DNA from: Luminiphilus syltensis NOR5-1B
GTDB lineage: Bacteria > Pseudomonadota > Gammaproteobacteria > Pseudomonadales > Halieaceae
DNA: 64,000 nt
Direction of reading: 5' to 3'
Assembly (NCBI RefSeq): GCF_000158175.1
Contig: NZ_DS999411.1
Location: 357,009-421,008, forward strand
Shown piece by piece: positions 51,533 to 64,000 of the stretch. Under the pieces are notes generated by a model. The model made no database searches. It was not told where the DNA came from and worked only from the letters and a program-made list of their open reading frames with translations. Both the position numbers and the translations under genes were made by a program. Positions within the stretch are counted from its first letter, which is position 1. Each line of letters begins with the position of its first letter.

Positions 51533-52625
51533 ATGGGAATCAAATGTGGCATCGTTGGTCTGCCGAACGTTGGCAAATCCACGCTCTTCAATGCACTCAC
51601 CAAGGCGGGCATCGAGGCGCAAAACTTTCCGTTTTGTACGATCGAACCCAACGCCGGGGTAGTTCCGGTACCCGATCCGCGTCAGGACAAAATCGCCGCT
51701 ATCGTGAAGCCTGATAAAACCATTGCCACCACCATGGAGTTTGTCGACATCGCAGGGTTGGTCGCCGGTGCCTCAAAGGGAGAGGGGTTGGGCAACCAGT
51801 TCCTCGCCAACATCCGGGAAACCGACGCCATTGCCCATGTGGTGCGTTGCTTCGAGGATCCAAACGTCATTCATGTCGCCAACGCCATCGACCCGCTGGC
51901 AGACATCGAAATCATTAACACCGAACTGGCCCTGTCCGATCTCGAGAGTTGTGAAAAACGCCTGCAAAAGGTCGTACGCACCGCCAAAAGCGGCGATAAA
52001 GAGTCCGTGGCGATGAAATCACTGCTTGAAGACAAGCTGCTGCCACATCTCAACGAAGTGCAACCCGTGCGCAGCCTGATGGTAAACGATACCGAAGCCG
52101 AGTTGATAAAAACGCTGCACCTCCTTACCGCCAAACCCACGATGTATATCGCCAACGTGGCCGAGGACGGTTTTGAAGAAAATCCACACCTGACGGCAGT
52201 GGAAACCCTGGCGGCCGAAGAAGGCGCCCAGGTGGTGGCAATCTGTAACAAACTCGAAGAAGAAATTATTGAGCTTGAAGAGGATGAAAAGCTCGAGTTC
52301 CTGGAAACCATCGGCATGGAGGAGCCCGGTCTCAATCGCGTCATCCGCGCCGCCTACCAATTACTCGATCTGCAAACCTACTTCACCGCCGGCCCCAAAG
52401 AAGTCCGCGCCTGGACGTCAAGTCGGCGCCACCGCTCCACAAGCCGCCCGTGTCATCCACACCGATTTCCAAAAGGGGTTTATCCGCGCTGAAGTGGTGG
52501 GCTACGAGGATTTTATCGATGGCAACGGCGAGCAGGGCGCCAAAGAAGCCGGCCGCTGGCGGCTCGAGGGCAAAGACTACATTGTCAACGACGGCGACGT
52601 GGTGCACTTCCGCTTTAATGTGTGA
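51533..52625 (+). pseudogene. ychF: ychF, redox-regulated ATPase, reading frame broken near the C-terminus
   Basis: YchF/OLA1 is an Obg-family P-loop protein with ATPase activity that binds ribosomes. Frame one (from ATG 51533) is normal through the G domain ([34 protein letters not shown]) and into [16 protein letters not shown]. It then becomes unrelated sequence and stops at 52492. The true TGS-domain continuation, [19 protein letters not shown] to the end [11 protein letters not shown] at 52625, is in another frame. The switch lies at about 52412-52424 and needs two extra bases (or one fewer). Both halves are otherwise perfectly conserved, so a sequencing or assembly indel is as likely as a recent mutation. 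Confidence 0.93.
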
Positions 52626-52733: not shown

Positions 52734-52810
52734 GGCTACGTAGCTCAGCTGGTTAGAGCACAGCATTCATAATGCTGGGGTCGGTGGTTCAAGTCCACCC
52801 GTAGCTACCA
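52734..52810 (+). tRNA. Elongator tRNA-Met (anticodon CAT)
   Basis: 77-nt cloverleaf with encoded CCA. Anticodon CAT at 52768-52770 sits in a TTCATAA loop closed by CAGCA/TGCTG. D-loop GCTCAGCTGGTTAGAGC and T-loop TTCAAGT are present. The D- and anticodon-arm sequence resembles elongator tRNA-Met of E. coli rather than initiator tRNA. The first acceptor pair is G1-U72 instead of the usual G-C. Confidence 0.95.
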
Positions 52811-53127
52811 TTTTTCTCCCTCAAAAACAGCAGATTAGACAGGCTCTCGGCTCTGCCCAATCAACGGGAGTGGACCGGTTTTCACTAAACTCGGTTAATG
52901 ATGCCATCCCACTCGCAATGGGCCAAGACGCGCAATCGGTAGTTTTCAAAATTCCTGAATCCGTACGCTCTACGGGTCATCATCTCCATCTGGCTCTCCC
53001 CAGTACGTTCAATAGGGGGGTCTCAACTACCTGGCGGCGACAAATCGGGTATGATTCCCGTTTGAAATTTGGGTGCATACCTAAACGCGCATTTAGATCG
53101 GACACAGGCAGGACCGAGATCAGAAAC
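52811..53127 (+). other. 317-bp upstream region of the DUF11-repeat gene
   Basis: No gene is supported here. A T-rich stretch directly after the tRNA may end its transcription. Within the last 90 bp are a TATGAT (53050-53055) set in CGGG/CCCG arms, and an inverted repeat CTAAA-N6-TTTAG (53081-53096), either of which could be regulatory. The DUF11 gene's frame is open back to 52870 but without a signal peptide or ribosome site. Confidence 0.4.
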
Positions 53128-55752
53128 ATGGCCCTCTTAACTTGCCGCACCCGCAGACGCCACCCTCTATCCCCCGGATTGTTACTGACCTTCATTCTGT
53201 GCGCGCTATCCGGCGCGGAAACCGTTGCCCAGACGCTCCCGGGGGAAGGCAACAGCTGCCTGCCGAGTCTCGGCAACGGAAACACCTGCACCGCAAACGA
53301 TCTGCGCCTGCAGGCCGAAGTGCTCACAGGCCCTCCCAGCTGTGAGCTTGGAGAAACCATCAGCGTCACGTTTAGAACCTCGATCGGGTCGACGGCGGCA
53401 TCAAGAGCGGCGAGCGAACGCTACAATCTAGGTTTCTTCATCGGGGAGAACGGCAGCGCCACGATTGATCCCGGAGCGGGGGAAACCTGCTCCGTTTCCT
53501 ACCTCACTCCGAACACGGGTACTCCCGATCTCGCCAGCGGCGTGGGGCCTTATAGGGAGCTCACCGGAGACCAGTGTGGTGATATTGAGGACGCCGACAC
53601 AACGCTTCATGACATCACAAGCACGCAGATTCTTTGCCGCGATAACGACGGCGACGGACGTCTCGACATTTCTGCGTCGGTAACCTGGAAGACCAACAAA
53701 AATAACGCTAGCTGTGCATCGCCGCCGACGGTTGCGGACTTCGTGCCCGATCAGAAATCTAAGTGTATAAGCTCCGTGAATCTGGGTTTTGATATCCCCG
53801 TCGAGACGCCGCCCGAAGTCACAGTGAGCAAGACCGCAATTCCCGACATCATTGAAGCCCCCGGGGCATCCGTAACTTACGAGGTAGTGGTTACGAATAC
53901 TTCAGGCCGCACCGACACGGTTACTATCAGTTCGGCGGTCGACGACAAGTTCGGCGACATCACGACGCTTCCCGGCGACTGCGACGTACTTCTGGATCCC
54001 GACGGGATCGAACCGGGCAGTTCCAGCACCTGCCGCTTTGAGGCAAACGTGTTCGGGGCTGCGGGAGACACCCACACAAACACCGTGACCGTAAACGGTG
54101 CGGATGAGGAGGGCAGCGCCGTATCGGCCTCCGACAGCGCCGTCGTTTCCATCATCGCGGGGGCTCCACCGCCCGCGTCCATGACGGTCGTCAAGGGCGC
54201 GGCGCCGTCCAGCGTTCCCGAGCCCGGTGGCGAAGTGGAATACACACTACAGGTGATCAATACCGGTGACGACACCCTGACCCTCACGACACTGGACGAT
54301 AACCAGCTCGGTGGCTCCGCGGGCGGCGTTGGTAATTGCTCGCTGCCTCAGACGATCCCACCCGGCTCGGCTTACGACTGCTCGTACCCCTTCAACGTTG
54401 CGGGAGCAGCCGGCGACGTTATCATCAACACGGTTACCGCCACGGCACAGCCCAACTCGGACCCGGGCAATGCCCTCGTCGAGTCGGACCGCGCTGAAGT
54501 CGAGATCCTGGATATCCCGGCGTTGATCTCCGTAAGCAAAACGCCGGTGCCCGAGGAAATTCCCGATCCCGGCGCCGGCAACAACACCCCGATCGATTAT
54601 CGACTCATCGTTTTCAATCAATCGCTGACAGACACAGTCACGATCAATTCCCTGACCGATATTCAACAGGAGGGGGTCAATCCCCCCAGCGTGCCTACAG
54701 ACGTGCTCACGCTGCCGGCTTCGCCGGGCAAGCCCGCCTGCTCCTTGCCCCAGACGCTCACGACCGGTTTTGGCCGGGTATATAGCTGCTGGTTTCAACG
54801 GTCCATCAGCGGCGACAACGTTAGTGAGGGTGATGTCGTATCCAACACGGTGCGTGCTGCGGGCATCGATGACGACGGCATGCCCCTCGAAGCCTCCGGC
54901 GGCGCCAATGTGTCGATCGTGGCGACACCGGTAGGAACCCTTGACGTGCTTAAGCGGGCCGACCCATCCGTCGTGACCCCCGAGGCGAATGTGGTGACCT
55001 TCTCGGTTGAGGTGCTCAACACGAGCACCGTCGAGGTGACCATCGACAGTCTCACGGACAGCGTCGAGGGTGGCACGGCCTACGACATTACAAATGCGGG
55101 TGCGGTCGTGAGCACAAGCTGCGCCGTACCCCAGACCCTGGCATCGGGAGAAACCTACACTTGCGCGTTTGTGCAGGCGGTGACCGGCAATCCCGGCGAA
55201 GGCATCACGGATATCGTGACCGCCTCCGGCGAGGACGAACTCTCCAACACCGTCGCAGCCGATGACAGCGCCACCGTAGCCATTGTCGATTCGGACCTGG
55301 ATATCCGCGTTGTAAAAACCGCCAGTCCGAACCTTGCGGCATCCGGCGCGCCGATCAGCTTTCTGGTTGAGGTGACGAACACCGGTTCTCAGGTGTTGCT
55401 CCTGGGCGAACTTGACGACTCGGAGTTCGGCGACCTCGACGGTCAGGGCACCTGTTCCCTACCCCAACGTCTTTCCATCGACGCAACCTACTCGTGCTCC
55501 TTCGATGCCGTGGTGAACGGCGGCGGGGTGGGCGTCCACATCAATACGGTGACCGTAACCGGCAGGCAGATTCTCCGTATCGCGAATCCCGGCGGAGACG
55601 CGGTGAGTGATTCGGACAGCGCCTACGTGCTGACCATCACCCTACCCGGACTCGACGACATCAAGGCCGTACCGATTTCCATCTGGGCGGTGCTGTTTTC
55701 AGCACTGGGGATCGTCCTTATCTTGCTCAGAAATCGGCGGCGCACTGGCTGA
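53128..55752 (+). CDS. Exported protein with five DUF11 repeats and an IPTL-CTERM-like anchor
   Basis: I recognise no specific function. The 874-residue product has a signal peptide (basic start, hydrophobic core about 15-30, cleavage near TVA-QT at 34), an N-terminal Cys-containing domain (about 35-225), and five DUF11 (TIGR01451-type) beta-repeats. The repeats begin near residues 232, 352, 467, 605 and 724, each opening with a V-K/S-K-x-P pattern and carrying Cys in a CSLPQ-like context and again about a dozen residues later. The C-terminus has VPISIWAV (848-855), a hydrophobic helix and RNRRRTG, resembling the IPTLxxW-CTERM sorting signal. No exosortase is in the window. Predicted to be cell-surface or secreted. 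Start at 53128 is set by the signal peptide. Confidence 0.85.
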   Translation: MALLTCRTRRRHPLSPGLLLTFILCALSGAETVAQTLPGEGNSCLPSLGNGNTCTANDLRLQAEVLTGPPSCELGETISVTFRTSIGSTAASRAASERYNLGFFIGENGSATIDPGAGETCSVSYLTPNTGTPDLASGVGPYRELTGDQCGDIEDADTTLHDITSTQILCRDNDGDGRLDISASVTWKTNKNNASCASPPTVADFVPDQKSKCISSVNLGFDIPVETPPEVTVSKTAIPDIIEAPGASVTYEVVVTNTSGRTDTVTISSAVDDKFGDITTLPGDCDVLLDPDGIEPGSSSTCRFEANVFGAAGDTHTNTVTVNGADEEGSAVSASDSAVVSIIAGAPPPASMTVVKGAAPSSVPEPGGEVEYTLQVINTGDDTLTLTTLDDNQLGGSAGGVGNCSLPQTIPPGSAYDCSYPFNVAGAAGDVIINTVTATAQPNSDPGNALVESDRAEVEILDIPALISVSKTPVPEEIPDPGAGNNTPIDYRLIVFNQSLTDTVTINSLTDIQQEGVNPPSVPTDVLTLPASPGKPACSLPQTLTTGFGRVYSCWFQRSISGDNVSEGDVVSNTVRAAGIDDDGMPLEASGGANVSIVATPVGTLDVLKRADPSVVTPEANVVTFSVEVLNTSTVEVTIDSLTDSVEGGTAYDITNAGAVVSTSCAVPQTLASGETYTCAFVQAVTGNPGEGITDIVTASGEDELSNTVAADDSATVAIVDSDLDIRVVKTASPNLAASGAPISFLVEVTNTGSQVLLLGELDDSEFGDLDGQGTCSLPQRLSIDATYSCSFDAVVNGGGVGVHINTVTVTGRQILRIANPGGDAVSDSDSAYVLTITLPGLDDIKAVPISIWAVLFSALGIVLILLRNRRRTG

Positions 55753-55758
55753 GTACCG

Positions 55759-55777
55759 GGTCAAAAGACCGATTTTT
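55759..55777 (+). terminator. Weak terminator-like hairpin after the DUF11 gene
   Basis: GGTC AAAA GACC followed by GATTTTT begins 6 bp after the stop. The stem is only four to five base pairs, so termination may be inefficient. This is the only convergent gap in the window with real space (220 bp, facing the LysR gene). Confidence 0.35.
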
Positions 55778-55972
55778 ACAAAAACCCGGTTCAGCACCCA
55801 ATATCCCCGCCCGCGCCGGCACTGCTTCACGACACGGCCCCTGCCCCGCTCGCTCGCTCGGGGCAATGCTGCGCGCGGCACCCGCATCACTGGTTTACGT
55901 CCATGGCCAGCAACGACATCTGCCGCTGCCCCCGATCGAGCCAGCGGGGACAGGCTCGCTCGCCTAAAACGT

Positions 55973-56875
55973 TCAATCCACGGGCGCGTGACCCACAGAC
56001 AGTCTTTCGATAAACCACTTGAGCGCACGACCGCGATCGCGCCGGCGCCAGGCAATAAACAGCAGACTGTCGGGGATCGGCTCCTGCAGCGGGACCTCGA
56101 CCAGTTCGCCGGTATCGAGCAGGCGCTCGACCCTCGGACGGGGAAGAAAGCCCGCGCCCAAACCTGCGCGCTGTACGGCGATCTTGTCCGCCATGCTCGA
56201 TACGGTCATTCGCGGCTGGCGCTCAAAAACCCGCAGCGTCACCGCGGGGTGCTCCCGGGATGAATCCCGAACCACGATCGCGCGGTGCTGCAGCCGCACG
56301 TCCTCACTCACCGGGGCTGCCTGCTCTGCAAGCGGGTGATGGGGCGCTACCGCAAACACCCAGGGGATGGTCATGATAGGTCGGGACTCGACCCCCGCCG
56401 ATTCGGGACTCGCCTCCGCCGCAGCAACAACGAGGTCGGCGCGATCGAGCTGCAACGCCTCCCAGGTGCCGCCGAGAACTTCGCTGGCAATATCGACTTC
56501 GGTATCCGGTTGCTCATCACAAAATGCCTGCAGGTGCGGCAGCAGAAAATCCGAATCCAATACCGTATCGAGTGCGATTCGCAGCCGTGACTCCCAGCCG
56601 CGCTCGAGCTGCTTTGTCTTTTCCACCAGACGGTCGGCGGCGTCCAGCAACTCTCGACCCTGCTCGAGCAATAACTTACCGGCGGGCGTAAGTACCGAGC
56701 GTCGCCCCTCGCGCACAAACAGCGTCACGCCGAGATCGTCCTGCAGCTTGTTCACGGTATAGGTGATTTTCGAAGGGACCCGGTAAAGACTCGCGGCAGC
56801 GGCCGAGAAGCTGCCCTTACGATCGATGGCGTCGAGTACTTCCAGGCTTTCCAGAGTAATACGGCTCATAATCAT
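55973..56875 (-). CDS. yhaJ: LysR-family transcriptional regulator, YhaJ-like
   Basis: The 300-residue product has an N-terminal winged helix (about 5-65: LEVLDAIDRKGSFSAAAASL, RVPSKITYTVNKLQDDLG, LFVREGRRSVLTPAG) and a substrate-binding domain (about 90-295). Both the helix region and motifs such as QPRMTVSSMADKIAVQRAGLGAG (cited as QPRMTVSSMADK) resemble E. coli YhaJ, which activates yqjF in response to aromatic electrophiles. It is divergent from doxX; its start abuts the 44-bp repeated element, a classical arrangement for LysR self- and target regulation. ATG at 56875 or the one at 56869 may be used. The link to quinone sensing is inference from homologue and context. Confidence 0.85.
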   Translation of the reverse strand: MIMSRITLESLEVLDAIDRKGSFSAAAASLYRVPSKITYTVNKLQDDLGVTLFVREGRRSVLTPAGKLLLEQGRELLDAADRLVEKTKQLERGWESRLRIALDTVLDSDFLLPHLQAFCDEQPDTEVDIASEVLGGTWEALQLDRADLVVAAAEASPESAGVESRPIMTIPWVFAVAPHHPLAEQAAPVSEDVRLQHRAIVVRDSSREHPAVTLRVFERQPRMTVSSMADKIAVQRAGLGAGFLPRPRVERLLDTGELVEVPLQEPIPDSLLFIAWRRRDRGRALKWFIERLSVGHAPVD

Positions 56876-56919
56876 ATTTTCATTTTATTTGAACATAAAT
56901 AACAGAATATTTCGATTTT
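56876..56919. promoter_or_regulatory. 44-bp repeated regulatory element, copy 1 (lysR/doxX)
   Basis: AT-rich element directly upstream of lysR and 77 bp before doxX. It contains TTCA-N7-TGAA (56879-56893), whose core is a T-N11-A LysR box, and a downstream TTTCGATTTT. It matches copy 2 at 63192-63235 in 35 of 44 positions in the same orientation. Likely binding site of the adjacent regulator. Confidence 0.7.
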
Positions 56920-56996
56920 AATAAAAAAATCAATGTTTATATTGATCTAAACGCTTCAAATAAAGCGAAATTTAAACGGCAACTGGAGGACTGATT

Positions 56997-57449
56997 ATGG
57001 AACAGACCAATACCTTTACCCAGCGACTGCTGACCAGCGAGAGCGGCATTGGCCCACTCGCCCTGCGCGTCCCTGTAGGCATTATTCTCAGCGCCCACGG
57101 CGCACAAAAACTGTTCGGCTGGTTCGGGGGCTACGGCCTTGAGGGCACCGGCCAATGGATGGCGTCCGTTGGTTTTGAGCCAGGCGTATTCATGGCGGCC
57201 CTCGCGGGCAGCGCCGAATTTTTTGGCGGTCTGCTACTGGTGCTTGGACTGCTCACACGCCCCGCCGGTGCACTGCTCGCCTTCACCATGGCCATGGCCA
57301 TGACGGTGCATCTGCCCAACGGGCTGTTCATCACCAACAACGGCTACGAATTCGCCTTCACGCTGCTTGCCGCATCCACTGCACTCGCCTTCCTCGGCGG
57401 CGGATCACTATCACTGGACCGGTGGCTCTCAGTGCGCGCCAACCGATAA
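56997..57449 (+). CDS. DoxX-family inner-membrane protein (YqjF-like)
   Basis: The 150-residue product has four hydrophobic helices and the DoxX pattern LALRVPVGIILSAHGAQKLFG, AGSAEFFGGLLLVLGLLTRPAG (in part) and MTVHLPNGLFI. DoxX proteins are poorly understood; E. coli YqjF responds to nitroaromatic degradation products under YhaJ control. Preceded by CTGGAGGA. It is the first gene to the right of the LysR regulator and probably heads a transcription unit through the Kef gene. Function here is inferred from context only. Confidence 0.87.
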   Translation: MEQTNTFTQRLLTSESGIGPLALRVPVGIILSAHGAQKLFGWFGGYGLEGTGQWMASVGFEPGVFMAALAGSAEFFGGLLLVLGLLTRPAGALLAFTMAMAMTVHLPNGLFITNNGYEFAFTLLAASTALAFLGGGSLSLDRWLSVRANR

Positions 57450-57519
57450 ACCTCACCCGCCTGGCTACACCGGGCACCACCATCAAACTAACGTTAAAAC
57501 GCTACAGGAGATTGACATC

Positions 57520-58245
57520 ATGCGTATATCAACCCACTTCTCTCGCTGGATACTATCGGCCCTGCTGGTTCTCGGTACTGGTCAGGTAATCGCATCGACG
57601 GCTACCCCCACACCCGCGGGTGGCTTACTTACCCCGGAGAATCACGCACTCATACTGATCGACCACCAACCACAAATGGCCTTCGCCACCCACTCAATCG
57701 ACATAGTCGAGCTGCGCAACAATGTGACGGGGCTTGCCAAAGCGGCCAAAGCGTTCAGCGTACCGACGATCCTCACAACGGTGGCAGAAGAGTCGTTTGC
57801 CGGCCCACTGTTTCCTGAGCTCAAGGCAGTGTTCCCGGAACAGAGCCCGATCGACCGGACCACGATGAACACCTGGGAGGATCCGCGTATCGCCGAGCGG
57901 GTCAACGAAATTGATCGCAAGAAGATTGTGGTTGCCGCGCTCTGGACCGAGGTTTGCGGGGTTGGACCGGTGCTGTCGGCGATTGACCAGGGCTACGACG
58001 TTTACTTCGTGACCGACGCCTCGGGCGGCGTGAGCAAAGAAGCCCACGACATGGCCGTACAACGCATGGTGCTGGCCGGTGCGCAGCCGATCACCTGGCT
58101 TCAGTACATGCTTGAACTGCAGCGTGACTGGTCTCGGACAGATACCTACGAAGCGGTCACCGGAATCGCCAAGCAGCACGGTGGGGGTTACGGCCTGGGC
58201 ATAATCTACGCCAAAGAGATGTTCGGCGCCAAAGAAGGAAACTAG
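57520..58245 (+). CDS. Exported YcaC-like isochorismatase-family hydrolase
   Basis: Cysteine hydrolase of the isochorismatase superfamily. The 241-residue product has a Sec signal peptide (about 1-25, cleavage near VIA-ST) and a domain close to E. coli YcaC: LILIDHQPQMAF with catalytic Asp48, LTTVAEESFAGPLFPELK, the catalytic Cys146 in WTEVCGVGPVLSA, and VTDASGGVSKEAH. YcaC itself is cytoplasmic, so the signal peptide is notable. ATG at 57520 follows CAGGAG; the frame extends upstream through doxX but without support. Substrate unknown. Confidence 0.88.
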   Translation: MRISTHFSRWILSALLVLGTGQVIASTATPTPAGGLLTPENHALILIDHQPQMAFATHSIDIVELRNNVTGLAKAAKAFSVPTILTTVAEESFAGPLFPELKAVFPEQSPIDRTTMNTWEDPRIAERVNEIDRKKIVVAALWTEVCGVGPVLSAIDQGYDVYFVTDASGGVSKEAHDMAVQRMVLAGAQPITWLQYMLELQRDWSRTDTYEAVTGIAKQHGGGYGLGIIYAKEMFGAKEGN

Positions 58246-58353
58246 GTCAACCACCGCCCGGCAGTCCTGTGACGACTGCCGGGCGCACCCCGAACAGACC
58301 CGAACCGCATCATCAGGACGCAACGTTTCTGCCAATAGAAGGGGATAACGCCC

Positions 58354-60192
58354 ATGAAATCATCCAAGCAACGTCCGTCGGTGACACGACGCCAGCTCTT
58401 ACGGACAGCGGCCACGGCCACCGCCGCTGCGGGAGCAGCCCAGTTCGGACTGGCTAAACCACCCCACGCGCCCGAGACCATCTTCTGGAACGGCAAGCTG
58501 CTGACCCAGGACCCCAGCCGGCCCAGCGCATCGGCCATGGCAATCAGCGACGGACTCTTAACCGCCGTTGGCGGCGATCGGGAAACACTTGCGCTACGGG
58601 ACGAGAAAACAGAAATCATTGATCTCAAGGGACACACCGTCATACCCGGTCTGAATGACAGCCACATGCATCCGACCCGCGCCGGTCGTTTTTATGCCCT
58701 GGAATTACGCTGGGATGGTGTCCGATCACTCAAGAAGGCACTGGCCATGGTCGCAGACCAGGCCAAACGCACGCCAAAAGGAGAGTGGGTGCGCGTGGTC
58801 GGCGGTTGGTCACCCTACCAGTTTGAAGAGCAGCGCTTGCCCACACCAGCCGAACTGACTAGAGCGGCGCCGAATACGCCCACATTTGTCCTGTTTCTCT
58901 ACAGCCGCGGTTTTCTCAATCGAGCAGCGGTCAATGCGCTGGGACTGGGACCTGAAGCCGTCGCACCCGAAGGAACACGCTACGAATTTACCGCCGACGG
59001 CGGCGCCATTCTCCACGCCGAACCCAATCCGGATCTGCTTTACGGCACGATTGCCAGACTGCCACAGCTTAACGCGGATCAGCAGCGCCTATCGACCACG
59101 CATTTCTATCGCGAACTCAATCGCTTTGGCTTAACCAGTGTCATCGATGCCGGCGGCGGTGGGCATCGCTACCCCGACAATTACGGCGCAACTCTGGCCC
59201 TTGCGGAGGACCGGCAATTGCCCTTGAGAATTTCGAAGTATTTGTTCCCCCAGAATAAAGGCCGTGAGTACGCAGAGTTCCAGCAATGGATGCAGCAGGT
59301 CGAGCCGGGGGATGAAACCCTCAGTAACCTGATGCACGGCTACCACCTTTCGGGCGCCGGTGAATTCCTGGTCTGGGCGGCGGGGGATTATGAAAATTTC
59401 CTCGCGCCCGCGCCCGATATTACCAGCAGACCCGAGTGGCGCAGCCAACTGCTTCGCGTGACACGATTACTACTGCAGGCGCAATGGCCACTGCGCATAC
59501 ACGCCACCTACGACGCCTCTGTCAACGCAATCCTCGACGTTTTTGAGCAGGCGCACGCCCTCGAAGTGGCCGAACACAGAGCCGGATTCTCGGGAATTCG
59601 CTTTGTCGTCGACCACGGTGAGACACTCCAGATCAGCACCATCAAACGGCTGCGAATGCTCGGTGCGGGGGTCGCCATGCAGTCTCGAATGGCGTATGCC
59701 GGTGAGTACTTCCTGGAGCGCTACGGCAAGGCCGCGACGCGGCGCGCACCGCCCTTGCGCGAGGTGTTGGCCTCGGGCATCCCACTCGGACTCGGTTCTG
59801 ACGCCACCCGCGTGGCCAGCTATAACCCCTGGGTCACACTGGCCTGGGCCACCACGGGACGAAGCGTTGGTGGTACACCTTTACACGGTCCGGAGCAGCG
59901 GCTGAGTCGGAGCGAGGCACTGTACTGCCACACGGTGGGATCAGCATGGATCAGCGGCGAGGAGCGCTTGAAAGGAAGACTGCGCGCCGGCCAGTTCGCC
60001 GACTTTGCCGTACTGAATGCACCCTACCTTTCTGTTGCAGATGCGGACCTACCCCTCATAGAGAGCGCACTGACCGTGGTGGGGGGCGAGGCGGTCTACA
60101 GCGACGGATCATTGACGCCGCCGCTTAAGCCCTTCGCTCCGCTGGATCCTGATTGGCTGCCGGTGAACACCTATGGCGGTTATCAGACGTGA
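58354..60192 (+). CDS. Tat-exported amidohydrolase (YtcJ-like, amidohydrolase family 3)
   Basis: Metal-dependent hydrolase of the PF07969 group. The 612-residue product has a twin-arginine signal (TRRQLLRT at 11-18 and an Ala-rich core to about 34), then the composite beta/TIM-barrel: metal-binding His104 and His106 in NDSHMHPTR, later His in RIHATYD and VDHGET, and catalytic-type Asp in GLGSDATRVASYNP. Twin-arginine export suggests folding with its metal before transport. The start lies about 108 bp after the previous gene. Substrate cannot be assigned. Confidence 0.87.
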   Translation: MKSSKQRPSVTRRQLLRTAATATAAAGAAQFGLAKPPHAPETIFWNGKLLTQDPSRPSASAMAISDGLLTAVGGDRETLALRDEKTEIIDLKGHTVIPGLNDSHMHPTRAGRFYALELRWDGVRSLKKALAMVADQAKRTPKGEWVRVVGGWSPYQFEEQRLPTPAELTRAAPNTPTFVLFLYSRGFLNRAAVNALGLGPEAVAPEGTRYEFTADGGAILHAEPNPDLLYGTIARLPQLNADQQRLSTTHFYRELNRFGLTSVIDAGGGGHRYPDNYGATLALAEDRQLPLRISKYLFPQNKGREYAEFQQWMQQVEPGDETLSNLMHGYHLSGAGEFLVWAAGDYENFLAPAPDITSRPEWRSQLLRVTRLLLQAQWPLRIHATYDASVNAILDVFEQAHALEVAEHRAGFSGIRFVVDHGETLQISTIKRLRMLGAGVAMQSRMAYAGEYFLERYGKAATRRAPPLREVLASGIPLGLGSDATRVASYNPWVTLAWATTGRSVGGTPLHGPEQRLSRSEALYCHTVGSAWISGEERLKGRLRAGQFADFAVLNAPYLSVADADLPLIESALTVVGGEAVYSDGSLTPPLKPFAPLDPDWLPVNTYGGYQT

Positions 60193-60255
60193 TCCGGCGG
60201 CCGCAATTGGTGTAAATTGACCTGGACCCATGGCCCTCGATAGGGAGAATTCTGC

Positions 60256-61164
60256 ATGACTCATTTTGAAGCCGATGCGGCGCCCTGCCGGTCCACCGGC
60301 GGAATCATCTCGTTGCGCGTCGAGCCGCGGGAGAAGGACCTGGGGGACTTTTCGGTCCGCCGCGTACTGCCCGCCACGGAACAGCGATCTGTCGGGCCAT
60401 TTGTTTTTTTCGATCACATGGGACCGGCCGTATTTCCGCCGGGGCGCAGTATTGACGTACGGCCACATCCACACATTGGAATTGCAACGATTACCTACCT
60501 GTTTGAGGGGGAAATCCTGCACCGCGATAGCCTGGGTGTAGTGCAGCCGGTCCGCCCGGGGGAAGTCAACCTGATGACTGCCGGCCGCGGCATCGTGCAC
60601 TCTGAAAGACCGGGCGAAGATGTCGATCGTGAATCCTACCTGCACGGCATTCAGAGCTGGATTGCGCTTCCCGAAGACGCCGAGGAAATGGCGCCGGCAT
60701 TTGCACATTATTCGAAAGCGGATCTCCCTGAATGGCACAGCAATGGCGCTACCCTGCGCCTGATCATGGGAGAGCTGGAGGACTATCGCTCGCCGGTAAC
60801 CACCTACTCCAGAACGCTCTACGCCGATATTTTTCTGTCTGCCGACTCCCAGTTGTCACTTCACCCGGAGGAACAGGAACTGGCCCTTTACGTCGCCGAG
60901 GGCCTGGTGCAAATTGGCGATGAGACCATCGGTGCCGGGGTAATGGCGATCATTGCCAATCCCGCTGCGCTGGAAATTAGCGCGCATGAGGATAGCCGTG
61001 TGCTCTTAATCGGTGGCAGTCCGCTGGGGCGGCGATACCTGTACTGGAACTTCGTCAGCACCCGGCCGGAACGCATCGATTCGGCAAAGACCGCCTGGCG
61101 TGAGAATCGCTTCCCAGAGGTGCCCGACGACCCGGAGCGCATTCCGCTTCCCGGCGACGACTGA
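60256..61164 (+). CDS. Pirin-family bicupin (YhaK-like)
   Basis: The 302-residue product has the pirin metal site: His71 and His73 in RPHPHIGIATITYLF, then His115 and Glu117 in GRGIVHSERPG, all four ligands present. Two cupin halves span about 40-150 and 170-290. Bacterial pirins such as YhhW cleave flavonols (quercetinase), and E. coli YhaK responds to redox state; yhaK lies next to yhaJ in E. coli. Starts after TAGGGAGAATTCTGC. The enzymatic substrate is unknown. Confidence 0.92.
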   Translation: MTHFEADAAPCRSTGGIISLRVEPREKDLGDFSVRRVLPATEQRSVGPFVFFDHMGPAVFPPGRSIDVRPHPHIGIATITYLFEGEILHRDSLGVVQPVRPGEVNLMTAGRGIVHSERPGEDVDRESYLHGIQSWIALPEDAEEMAPAFAHYSKADLPEWHSNGATLRLIMGELEDYRSPVTTYSRTLYADIFLSADSQLSLHPEEQELALYVAEGLVQIGDETIGAGVMAIIANPAALEISAHEDSRVLLIGGSPLGRRYLYWNFVSTRPERIDSAKTAWRENRFPEVPDDPERIPLPGDD

Positions 61165-61181
61165 CTCGCAGGAGCGACCCC

Positions 61182-63065
61182 TTGACCGGATTACTACTTG
61201 ACGCCTTTATCTATCTGGCTGCGGCTGTGGTCGCTGTACCACTCACCAAACGTCTCGGGCTCGGTTCAGTACTGGGCTATCTGCTCGCAGGGGTGATAAT
61301 CGGCCCGGTACTGGGTCTGGTTGGCTCCGAGGAGAGCACCACCATTCAGCACTACGCCGAGTTCGGTGTTGTCATGATGCTGTTCCTGGTGGGACTCGAG
61401 CTGGAGCCTGCAATGCTCTGGCGGATGCGTACCCGTTTGCTCGGGCTGGGCGGCTTACAGGTTTCGCTGACAGCGGCGCTTTTTACCCTCGTTGCCTGGT
61501 GGTTCGGAACTGACTGGCGCAGCGCCATCGCCATCGGCCTGTTGTTATCCTTGTCGTCCACCGCCATCGTGCTGCAAACCTTTCAGGAGAAGGGTTTATC
61601 GGGCTCCGAAGGCGGGCGCAGTGCCTTTTCGGTGCTGCTGTTTCAGGACATCGCCGTTATTCCCATGCTCGCGCTGATACCCCTGCTGGCTATTCCAGAG
61701 CTGGGCAGCGGCCAGTTGTCGGCAGCCGGTGCGGCGGATCATCACGACCTCAGTCTGGTTGCCGGCCTCTCCGGATGGAGCTATGCACTGGTGATTGTCG
61801 GCGCGGTGGGTGGCGTTATTGTCGGCGGGCATTTTTGCTCACGCCCGCTGTTTCAGGCGGTGGCAAGTACGGGTCTACGCGAGGCGTTTACCGCAGCGGC
61901 CCTGCTCCTCATTATTGGTATCGCACTGCTCATGAGCCTGGTCGGCCTGTCTCCGGCACTGGGTACTTTTCTGGCCGGAGTAGTGCTCGCGAACAGCGAG
62001 TTTCGCCACGAACTGGAAACCGACATCGAGCCCTTCAAAGGGCTGTTGCTGGGTTTGTTTTTCATCACCGTCGGCGCGGCGGTGCAATTCAGCATACTGA
62101 TCGAGCACGCCGGACTTATTATTGGCCTGACGATCGCCGTTATTGTCGGCAAAGCACTCTTGTTGTACGGCCTGGCGCTTTTGTTCCGAGTGCGCCGCGC
62201 TGACGGCTGGCTGTTCACGCTGAGTCTTGCCCAGGCAGGTGAGTTCGGTTTTGTCCTGATCAGCTATGCCACTCAGAACCGGGTCCTGCCCGACTCGTTG
62301 ACCTCAGTGCTATCGCTGGTCGTGGCGCTGTCGATGTTCTGCACGCCGCTACTGTTCATCGCCTTTGATCGGCTGGTAACGCCCCGCTACGCGGGCAATG
62401 ACGCTCAGGCACCACCGGATAGCATCGACAAACACGGCACAGTCATCATCGCCGGCAGCGGACGCTTTGGCCAAATCGTCAACCGCATGCTGAGGGGTGC
62501 CGGTATTGATACCGTAGTCATCGACCGCACGGCGCAGCAGATCGAAAACATGCGGGCTGTGGATATTCGCAGCTACTTCGGCGACGCCACGCGGCCGGCC
62601 CTGTTGCACGCGGCAGGCATTGAACAGGCATTACTGTTTGTGATCGCTATCGACGACGTCGATCAGGCGACCGGGCTTGCTCGCCATTTGCGCAGCAGCC
62701 ACCCCAATCTGAAAATCCTGGCAAGAGCCTTTGACCGCGGTCATTTCTATACCCTCAAGGAGGCCGGCGTCGACTGGGTTGTTATAGAAACCTATCACTC
62801 GGCGCTGGAGACGGGGAAGCAGGCCCTGACAAGCCTTGGCATCGGCAGCGAGCAGGCCGCAGATCTGGCGTCTGCTTTCCATGATGCGGAAGTTCGTGGT
62901 CGCGACATTCTCTACGAACAGTGGCGTGAAAAAAGTGAAGGGGAACGCTACGGACACGGTTTCCGCAGCCTCTATATCGAACTCGAAGAAGCGCTGCGCG
63001 AGCTCATGCAGGAAGAGAAAGAAAACGACAACCCACAAACCAGCGGCAATAACGCGCAGGACTGA
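61182..63065 (+). CDS. Kef-type K+/H+ antiporter with TrkA-N domain
   Basis: Monovalent cation:proton antiporter 2 family. The 627-residue product has about twelve membrane helices (1-390), then a cytosolic TrkA-N/RCK nucleotide-binding domain (about 408-540, with IIAGSGRFGQIVNRMLRGAG). The conserved loop RHELETDIEPFKGLLLGLFF is nearly that of KefC, whose channel is held shut by glutathione and opened by glutathione adducts of electrophiles. TTG at 61182, seven bases after CAGGAG, is the only start with a ribosome site. The neighbouring glutathionyl-hydroquinone reductase strengthens the link to electrophile defence; gating here is inference. Confidence 0.9.
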   Translation: MTGLLLDAFIYLAAAVVAVPLTKRLGLGSVLGYLLAGVIIGPVLGLVGSEESTTIQHYAEFGVVMMLFLVGLELEPAMLWRMRTRLLGLGGLQVSLTAALFTLVAWWFGTDWRSAIAIGLLLSLSSTAIVLQTFQEKGLSGSEGGRSAFSVLLFQDIAVIPMLALIPLLAIPELGSGQLSAAGAADHHDLSLVAGLSGWSYALVIVGAVGGVIVGGHFCSRPLFQAVASTGLREAFTAAALLLIIGIALLMSLVGLSPALGTFLAGVVLANSEFRHELETDIEPFKGLLLGLFFITVGAAVQFSILIEHAGLIIGLTIAVIVGKALLLYGLALLFRVRRADGWLFTLSLAQAGEFGFVLISYATQNRVLPDSLTSVLSLVVALSMFCTPLLFIAFDRLVTPRYAGNDAQAPPDSIDKHGTVIIAGSGRFGQIVNRMLRGAGIDTVVIDRTAQQIENMRAVDIRSYFGDATRPALLHAAGIEQALLFVIAIDDVDQATGLARHLRSSHPNLKILARAFDRGHFYTLKEAGVDWVVIETYHSALETGKQALTSLGIGSEQAADLASAFHDAEVRGRDILYEQWREKSEGERYGHGFRSLYIELEEALRELMQEEKENDNPQTSGNNAQD

Positions 63066-63191
63066 TCTCGTGCGTCACACCGGGCGACGCCACCCAAGTG
63101 ACTCACGCGGTCCGTCACCTGTCGGCCGCGGACAAAAATGCGAATGGGCTGTGGCATCGATGGATTCTTCCCGAGACCCGTCGGCGACCAA

Positions 63192-63235
63192 ATCTTCATT
63201 TTTATTGAAGAAAAACATCAGAAATTTTCGATTTT
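63192..63235. promoter_or_regulatory. 44-bp repeated regulatory element, copy 2 (yqjG)
   Basis: Located 66 bp before the reductase start. TTCA-N7-TGAA at 63195-63209 is kept, extended to CTTCA/TGAAG, and followed by TTTTCGATTTT. Same orientation and similar distance to the gene as copy 1 upstream of doxX, with 35 of 44 identical positions. Likely operator of the same LysR protein. Confidence 0.7.
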
Positions 63236-63301
63236 TTTGTCGTTTTCACAACCATAGACTGTGGGTTGATGCGTTAACCAACCGACATAACGGAGGAAAC
63301 C

Positions 63302-64000
63302 ATGGGCTTACTGGTCGACGGACAATGGCAGGATCGCTGGTATGACACCAGCGAATCAGGTGGTCGTTTTATTCGCGAGGACGCACAGTTTCGCGAGTCT
63401 ATCGGCGGCGGTTCGGAGCAGTACCCCGCCGAAAGCGGTCGCTATCATCTATACGTTTCACTCGCCTGTCCCTGGGCGCACCGCACATTGATGGTACGCG
63501 CACTCAAAGGTCTCGAGGAGCACATCTCGGTGTCGGTCGTCAGCCCCATCATGCTGGAGAACGGCTGGACCTTTAGGACCGATGAAGGCAGCACCGGCGA
63601 TGCCCTGCACGACGCCGATTTCATGCACCAGATTTACACCACCGCCCAGTCCGACTATAGCGGGCGTGTCACCGTGCCGGTGCTTTGGGATAAAAAAACC
63701 AACACTATCGTCAGCAATGAATCCTCCGAGATCATCCGTATGCTGGGTACCGCGTTCAATCGTCTGACTGGAAACACGCTGGACTTTTATCCCGAGCCGC
63801 TACGCCAGAAGATCGACGACTGGAATGCACGTATCTACCCCGCAATCAACAACGGCGTCTATCGCGCGGGCTTTGCGACGACACAAGACGCCTATGAAGA
63901 AGCCTACGAGGAATTGTTTGCTGAACTGGATGTGATTGACGAGCACCTGCGCAGCAACCGCTACCTGTGTGGTCCGGCACTGACCGAAGCCGATATTCGC
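63302..64000 (+). CDS. yqjG: Glutathionyl-hydroquinone reductase (YqjG/ECM4 family), cut by window edge
   Basis: Xi-class glutathione transferase that reduces glutathionyl-hydroquinones back to hydroquinones using glutathione. The visible 233 residues start MGLLVDGQWQDRWYDTSESG after CGGAGGAAACC and include the catalytic CPWAH motif in SLACPWAHRTLMVRALKG, the thioredoxin-fold VTVPVLWDKKTNTIVSNESS with the glutathione-binding ESS, and the start of the helical domain. About 90 residues are missing beyond 64000 compared with the family. E. coli yqjG is adjacent to yqjF and close to yhaJ/yhaK, matching the genes here. Confidence 0.93.
   Translation, partial: MGLLVDGQWQDRWYDTSESGGRFIREDAQFRESIGGGSEQYPAESGRYHLYVSLACPWAHRTLMVRALKGLEEHISVSVVSPIMLENGWTFRTDEGSTGDALHDADFMHQIYTTAQSDYSGRVTVPVLWDKKTNTIVSNESSEIIRMLGTAFNRLTGNTLDFYPEPLRQKIDDWNARIYPAINNGVYRAGFATTQDAYEEAYEELFAELDVIDEHLRSNRYLCGPALTEADIR

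Follow-up and report, generated by a model that had tools for sequence, protein, structure and literature searches.

Do neighbouring genes for a LysR-type regulator, a DoxX protein, two hydrolases, a pirin, a Kef antiporter and a glutathionyl-hydroquinone reductase (GHR) make up one response to quinones? The question is raised by a locus, here called the island, at the end of a stretch of 64,000 nucleotides from Luminiphilus syltensis NOR5-1B (positions 357009–421008 of NZ_DS999411.1, a one-contig genome of 3,261,541 bases), which is referred to below as the window. A first-pass annotation, made from the window alone, had proposed seven consecutive genes led by a YhaJ-like regulator as a quinone- or electrophile-response island. 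All seven open reading frames are present, with Pfam domains that fit the families it named: lysR on the reverse strand and, divergent from it, doxX, the hydrolase, the amidohydrolase, the pirin, kef and ghr on the forward strand, with intergenic gaps of 121, 70, 108, 63, 17 and 236 bases in order from lysR to ghr. We give roughly 60% probability to reading the island as a compact regulon of the Escherichia coli YhaJ type that responds to quinones or quinols. The best reading of what is new in it is a single-locus variant of that known regulon, extended by two probably exported hydrolases, by a pirin and by a Kef antiporter whose gating is probably changed.

The regulator and its operators

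The regulator gene (lysR, 55973..56875, reverse strand) encodes 300 residues with the Pfam domains HTH_1 and LysR_substrate. Its product is 40% identical to YhaJ over 287 residues and 34% identical to PunR, these being the only two E. coli K-12 proteins with which it was compared. YhaJ responds to quinol-like compounds (PMC5031710), methylhydroquinone acts on it (PMC11739112), and its box was given as TCA-N7-TGA by Palevsky et al. in 2016 (PMC5031710). This short pattern occurs 29 times in the whole window; after position 55000 there are two copies in intergenic gaps and two inside the hydrolase and kef genes.

The two gap sites share more than the box. In common with E. coli yqjF and yhaK they carry the longer element TCA-N7-TGA-N10-CAG and, in common with sites in relatives, a TCG-bearing block 17 bases past the TGA. 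The full element spans 44 bases and consists of TCA-N7-TGA, CA(G/A) 10 bases on and the TCG-bearing block at 17 bases. Operator 1 (56879..56922, box at 56880) lies in the lysR/doxX gap and operator 2 (63195..63238, box at 63196) in the kef/ghr gap, both read on the forward strand.

Relatives of the regulator were found at E ≤ 1e-55 in eight of 96 related genomes (0 of 56 congeners, 0 of four other family members and 8 of 36 genomes of the order) and at E ≤ 1e-60 in 26 of the 274 other genomes of a class sample. The stretches around all 34 matches were examined, five of them on contigs shorter than 8 kb, and 11 of these loci, all from other genomes and none from E. coli or the window, provided a 44-column matrix. 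The 11 training sites were hand-picked for a box near lysR, which biases the box columns and leaves the later ones unbiased. The highest-scoring sites of the window are those at 63196 (34.9) and 56880 (29.3); the third scores 6.9. An earlier matrix, which included two E. coli sites, scored the two window sites at 41.0 and 40.3, against 17.9 for the best of 100 Markov windows, and its third site (18.3) also lies in the kef/ghr gap, on the opposite strand. With the post-box part of that matrix alone, the two sites still took the top two ranks among 127,914 positions, and none of 5000 shuffles of each AT-rich gap reached 40 (maxima 34.7 and 30.0).

Scores of at least 20 were obtained in leave-one-out for all 11 training loci, and also for 15 of the 23 LysR loci outside the training set, where ten of the sites lie within 300 bases upstream of lysR and the remaining five in front of a gene for pirin or GHR. 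Elsewhere this score was reached in none of 13 control stretches, 20 pirin loci and 20 Kef loci, and in one of 32 proteobacterial amidohydrolase loci; the other 48 amidohydrolase loci stand outside that count, and AT-rich ones among them reached 32.7 with the earlier matrix. AT-rich genomes inflate the operator score. An operator-like site (24.4) was also seen in a Halieaceae metagenome-assembled genome (L074:7012), about 200 bases before a hydrolase match and not far from a different LysR gene.

The published E. coli YhaJ targets are yqjF, yhaK, ybiJ, yhhW, ygiD and yceP (PMC5031710). Of these six promoters, the matrix ranked those of yqjF, ybiJ and yhhW first, and that of yhaK second, in their own loci. 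The four recovered promoters have box-to-ATG distances of 93 to 150 bases, and the corresponding distances in the island are 117 bases (56880) and 106 bases (63196). A search of the 3.26-Mb genome allowing up to three mismatches, with a pattern composed with the window sites in view, found seven places, namely the two operators with no mismatch and five others with three; below three mismatches there are operators 1 and 2 only. The reversed control pattern found three places. The first-pass view that a YhaJ-like protein leads the set is thus strengthened by a putative conserved operator, restricted to this site in the genome at fewer than three mismatches, at both promoters, and the predicted joint control of the island by the LysR protein is well supported. 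The block 17 bases past the TGA may be a YhaJ-type activation site. A 2025 paper notes that a definite assignment of recognition and activation sites is lacking for the YhaJ promoter (PMC11739112), and the 44-base element offers a concrete candidate for them.

It is very unlikely that the LysR protein is instead a PunR- or AllS-type regulator of another signal, with a likeness to YhaJ at family level only. NCBIfam ranks PunR (224.5 bits against a cut-off of 345) and AllS highest, each below its cut-off; a YhaJ model is absent among the 25 of 49 NCBIfam matches listed; and the E. coli punR locus carries a related site of lower strength (28.9). A tree of 41 LysR sequences, in which the island protein groups with those of loci L017 and L018 (96/94), YhaJ with that of L024, and PunR sits on a long branch, leaves the place beside YhaJ unsettled. 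YhaJ is nevertheless nearer than PunR in identity, the operators match YhaJ promoters in both sequence and distance to the ATG, and the genes linked to the regulator in its relatives are those for DoxX, GHR and pirin.

Two neighbourhoods joined in one locus

Around the 34 LysR loci, GHR was found in eight, DoxX in eight, some pirin in 13 and a weak Kef match in one. DoxX and GHR occur together in six (L022, L025, L026, L027, L031 and L046), and the 13 control stretches contain a single LysR match and no match to the other families. LysR, DoxX and GHR form a recurrent core. The grouping in E. coli that the first-pass annotation had cited is real, yqjF, yqjG, yhaH, yhaI, yhaJ and yhaK lying together there. 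In the island, doxX (56997..57449, forward strand) encodes a membrane protein of 150 residues with the Pfam domain DoxX, 31% identical to YqjF. The ghr gene (63302..64000, forward strand) is cut at the window edge; in the genome it is complete, encodes 324 residues and ends at the window-equivalent position 64276. Its product has the domains GST_N_2 and GST_C_2, matches 3r3e with an E value of 2.5e-119, and is 56% identical to YqjG over 324 columns, with C63, Y195, Y253 and Y296 kept; we take these to be active-site positions in YqjG numbering. In L025, L026, L027, L031 and L046, doxX and ghr are at most 100 bases apart, whereas in the island four genes stand between them and ghr has its own operator. 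Another genome of the order (L157) has a GHR–YqjF pair and, about 2 kb away, a Kef gene, with no operator site scoring at least 20.

Two of the four intervening genes belong to a different neighbourhood. The hydrolase (57520..58245, forward strand; 241 residues, Pfam Isochorismatase) is 41% identical to YcaC and keeps the Asp-Arg-Cys set at the D19, R84 and C118 positions, presumably the catalytic residues of YcaC, and scores below the NCBIfam YcaC equivalog cut-off (149.1 of 310 bits). The amidohydrolase (58354..60192, forward strand; 612 residues, Pfam Amidohydro_3) has H104, H106, H383, H421 and D483, invariant across 18 relatives, and these histidines and the aspartate presumably bind metal. 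The N terminus of the hydrolase is hydrophobic and that of the amidohydrolase carries a twin-arginine motif, TRRQLL, and both proteins are probably exported. By a simple hydrophobicity rule, a hydrophobic or twin-arginine N terminus is present in 73 of 80 relatives of the amidohydrolase. Among relatives of the hydrolase, in groups set by hand from sequence titles, such an N terminus occurs in 37 of 41 outside Pseudomonadota and in 2 of 22 inside; because of the latter figure, an exported hydrolase such as that predicted here appears unusual for the phylum of the island.

These 80 amidohydrolases (L069–L148; six on contigs shorter than 8 kb) were kept out of 130 relatives that a scan of genome contigs gave, and include by title Pseudomonadota, Bacteroidota, Planctomycetota and one Gemmatimonadota. 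Within about 10 kb of them there is a hydrolase at 64, an alginate-export-type porin at 49, a pirin at 43, YceI at 25 and DoxX at 23; a CPA2 antiporter match was found at ten, tyrosinase at nine, a LysR match at eight and GHR at one. Neither tyrosinase nor the porin occurs in the loci of the other anchors (34 LysR, 20 Kef, 20 pirin and 13 control stretches), all of which come from the class of the island and are unmatched as a control. The hydrolase and amidohydrolase form a separate, widespread module, present in several phyla and often found beside pirin and DoxX, of which the open-access literature searched yielded no description. That the island points to such a module, with pirins, DoxX and sometimes tyrosinase, is of interest in its own right. 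A further locus on a Sulfitobacter plasmid (L177, NZ_CP081124.1 40509–66221) holds a tyrosinase, two amidohydrolases, a hydrolase and DoxX, together with an antibiotic-biosynthesis-type monooxygenase, a ring-cleaving dioxygenase and a LysR gene; this set is suggestive of phenol/quinone chemistry.

The pirin (60256..61164, forward strand) is a two-cupin protein of 302 residues with the domains Pirin and Pirin_C, and its nearest solved chain is 6d0g. It had been described as YhaK-like, a label that is not supported: because its match to YhaK (27%) spans just 78 residues and because it carries Pirin_C, it is best assigned to another pirin subfamily. Its relatives were examined at 20 of 26 matches outside its own genome, one of them on a contig shorter than 8 kb. 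Pirin and Kef were considered as a fixed pair and rejected as such, a pirin being present in two of 20 Kef loci (L164 and L165) and in L114, and Kef in none of the 20 pirin loci.

The island joins two neighbourhoods that recur apart. The proposed check of co-occurrence in other genomes therefore has a divided outcome, in that the parts recur and the complete set of seven appeared at none of the 34 LysR, 80 amidohydrolase, 20 Kef and 20 pirin loci examined, misses that are weakened by short contigs. The quinone theme gains support by association, from DoxX with GHR beside the regulator on one side and from pirin, DoxX and tyrosinase beside the hydrolase–amidohydrolase pair on the other. No paper on the whole set was found in the open-access literature searched, in line with the first-pass annotation.

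Transcription from operator 1 would have to run from doxX through kef. The four-gene block between doxX and ghr yielded no other operator and no terminator ending in a clear T-run, and a scan for sigma-70 promoters from 55700 to 64000 gave no matches. The gap between hydrolase and amidohydrolase contains a perfect 12-bp hairpin without a T-run (58255..58285, forward strand; gap fold −36.8 kcal/mol, z −2.44), a possible processing or attenuation site. This hairpin could cut transcription, and it bears on the idea that the response to quinones is confined to DoxX, GHR and the regulator, with the hydrolase, amidohydrolase, pirin and kef genes a passenger block serving another catabolic task. That neither hydrolase nor amidohydrolase occurs in any of the 34 LysR loci, and that the pair stands without LysR, DoxX and GHR in most of its 80 loci, would agree with such a division. 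We consider it improbable, given that ghr keeps its own operator past the block, that no other operator or clear terminator turned up in its interior, and that elsewhere the pair itself accompanies pirin, DoxX and tyrosinase.

A Kef antiporter with an altered pocket

The kef gene (61182..63065, forward strand, with a TTG start as listed) encodes 627 residues comprising Na_H_Exchanger and TrkA_N domains, the parts of a K+/H+ antiporter with an RCK domain. It is KefB/C-like over its whole length, with 41% identity to both KefC and KefB of E. coli, and falls below the NCBIfam equivalog cut-offs for KefC (626.7 of 752 bits) and KefB (544.8 of 804 bits). The K+ site residues T127, Q155, D156 and K307 are kept. 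In the pocket, Q412 and R416 are kept, and R516, the aromatic switch F441 and N551 of KefC are replaced by Ile, Val and Glu, respectively; the roles of these pocket and K+ site residues have been described (PMC10224563, PMC11150392).

Kef loci were examined at 20 of 38 matches, two of them on contigs shorter than 8 kb. In the seven nearest relatives compared (L149–L155) the R516 position is occupied by Ser or Pro, and in the 13 other rows, as in KefC and KefB, by Arg. Position 441 is Val or Ile in seven of the eight rows formed by the island Kef and L149–L155, and Phe in L154, and Q412 and R416 are kept in all eight. Neither N551, which is Glu or Asp, nor R498, which varies throughout, is telling alone. 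In L149–L155 R516 is replaced although five of the seven have kefG adjoining.

A KefG match stands beside Kef at 11 of the 20 loci. No kefF or kefG adjoins the island kef, and the E. coli KefG query that found those 11 gave no match in the genome; KefF itself was not searched for, and the one Flavodoxin_2 match of the genome lies at a great distance from kef. The pirin gene occupies the place that kefG has in relatives. A second KefB/C in the genome was looked for and set aside, the matches being distant only.

The proposal that this antiporter opens on glutathione adducts can be kept in part. It is a KefC-like antiporter, and its opening by such adducts is doubtful because Arg516 and the aromatic switch are replaced and KefG was not found in the genome. 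We infer that the lineage of the island Kef reads glutathione differently or not at all. An ordinary glutathione-gated KefB/C, opened by quinone–glutathione adducts before GHR reduces them, is a possibility that we rate as unlikely, if somewhat less so than the passenger block. It draws on the KefB/C likeness along the whole length, the retention of Q412 and R416, the placing of kef in one putative regulon with ghr, and the report that position 441 varies and that some working Kefs have no partner (PMC10224563). The loss of R516 in precisely this group of relatives, the Glu at N551, the lack of a KefG match and the scores below the KefC and KefB cut-offs all tell against it. The altered pocket raises the question of what else gates such antiporters.

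Kef relatives (E ≤ 1e-120) occur in nine of the 96 related genomes, with none in the 56 congeners, and in 28 of the 274 genomes of the class sample. Among the 40 non-congeners, LysR is present in eight, Kef in nine and both in seven (upper-tail hypergeometric 1.5e-5, with kinship ignored). The LysR and Kef genes were not neighbours at the loci examined. That the two go together as a rule was rejected, being so in the order and not in the class.

Genomic setting, mechanism and known systems

Upstream of the island a tRNA-Met (52734–52810) follows a gene that we take to be ychF, and a DUF11 repeat gene stands between the tRNA and lysR. The same ychF-like/tRNA-Met pair is present in many congeners, and in four of these (G010, G025, G031 and G036) the 3' end of the tRNA recurs further down the contig, with at most five candidates scored per genome. 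The site after the ychF-like gene has the look of an integration hot spot. In the island's own genome there is no copy of the tRNA-Met 3' end, and base composition shows no break at the island (GC 0.55–0.64 along a 20-kb stretch). As judged by LysR (0 of 56) and Kef (0 of 56), the island is absent from the sampled congeners, and in G006 and G031, whose genomes are single contigs, the moxR-like flank matches map to other places, moxR having paralogues. The island may have been gained by transfer or lost elsewhere.

Downstream lie NmrA-like (reverse strand), SnoaL-like and MFS-type genes, the last called by eye, which show no sign of island membership; the operator pattern is absent there. Two features of the upstream flank may also be recorded. 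The ychF-like frame (51533–52625) stops early at 52492, with its C-terminal part in another frame (open reading frame 52269–52625), a break due to a frameshift or a sequencing error; and the segment 52848–52989, around the start of the DUF11/DUF7507 repeat gene (52870–55752), has an 88% copy at C1:2291928.

If the island is a regulon of the YhaJ type, the LysR protein would occupy both operators and, by analogy with YhaJ, bind a quinol-like effector; in the bound state it would activate, through operator 1, the run of genes from doxX to kef (hydrolase, amidohydrolase and pirin included) and, through operator 2, ghr. GHR, by the known chemistry of YqjG and with its active-site residues kept, would reduce glutathionyl-hydroquinones in the cytoplasm. 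The probable task of the pirin is to oxidise or cleave quinol-like aromatics. The hydrolase and amidohydrolase would work outside the cytoplasm, their target being the parent compound or an adduct. Kef would exchange K+ for H+ under transcriptional control by LysR, its RCK domain probably answering a ligand other than a glutathione adduct. The island looks as if it was put together from a LysR–DoxX–GHR core and the hydrolase–amidohydrolase pair, the pirin and a KefG-less Kef, these last lying between doxX and ghr.

Several observations weigh against a regulon of this type. Two published YhaJ targets, ygiD and yceP, were missed by the matrix, and the pattern used for the genome search was not independent of the window sites. 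The tree does not place the island LysR beside YhaJ. An operator score of at least 20 is missing from all 20 Kef loci, and LysR and Kef occur together in one genome of the class sample (G230), where about 2.7 would be expected. To these must be added the 34 LysR loci without hydrolase or amidohydrolase, and the hairpin that separates two genes of the supposed operon.

More tentatively, one might imagine a portable, single-locus YhaJ regulon in which a quinol-sensing LysR runs an antiporter of KefC fold that has shed the glutathione pocket and KefG, with the pirin perhaps as its redox partner, the exported hydrolase pair as an outer arm and the second operator block as a possible activation site; we regard this fuller picture as possible and unlikely to hold in its entirety. 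With or without it, the island offers a minimal regulon, of natural origin, in which to ask what genes respond to a quinol signal. E. coli reporters for landmine chemicals use YhaJ as their sensor.

Comparison with known systems brings out both what is shared and what is not. The island GHR resembles YqjG along its full length and in its active-site residues. With the E. coli pairs KefC/KefF and KefB/KefG, the island Kef has in common the CPA2 membrane domain, the RCK domain and the K+ site residues; those systems keep R516 and a partner, whereas here R516, F441 and N551 are replaced and no partner gene is adjacent. When Pseudomonas fluorescens In5 responds to Rhizoctonia solani, joint rises are seen for YqjG, DoxX, a pirin, LigB, a hydrolase, two quercetinases and two azoreductases (PMC5557065). 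This is a comparable set of functions, with the same quinone theme; its locus tags, as given in that report, are scattered, whereas the island genes share one locus. The E. coli YhaJ regulon, as set out in the main text of PMC5031710, likewise has a LysR regulator, 40% identical to that of the island, with DoxX and a pirin among its targets. The island adds the hydrolase, the amidohydrolase and Kef, and its pirin appears to come from another subfamily; yqjG is unnamed in that main text. Finally, the targets of YhaJ in E. coli are dispersed over the chromosome, whereas in Luminiphilus syltensis both operators stand in one locus.

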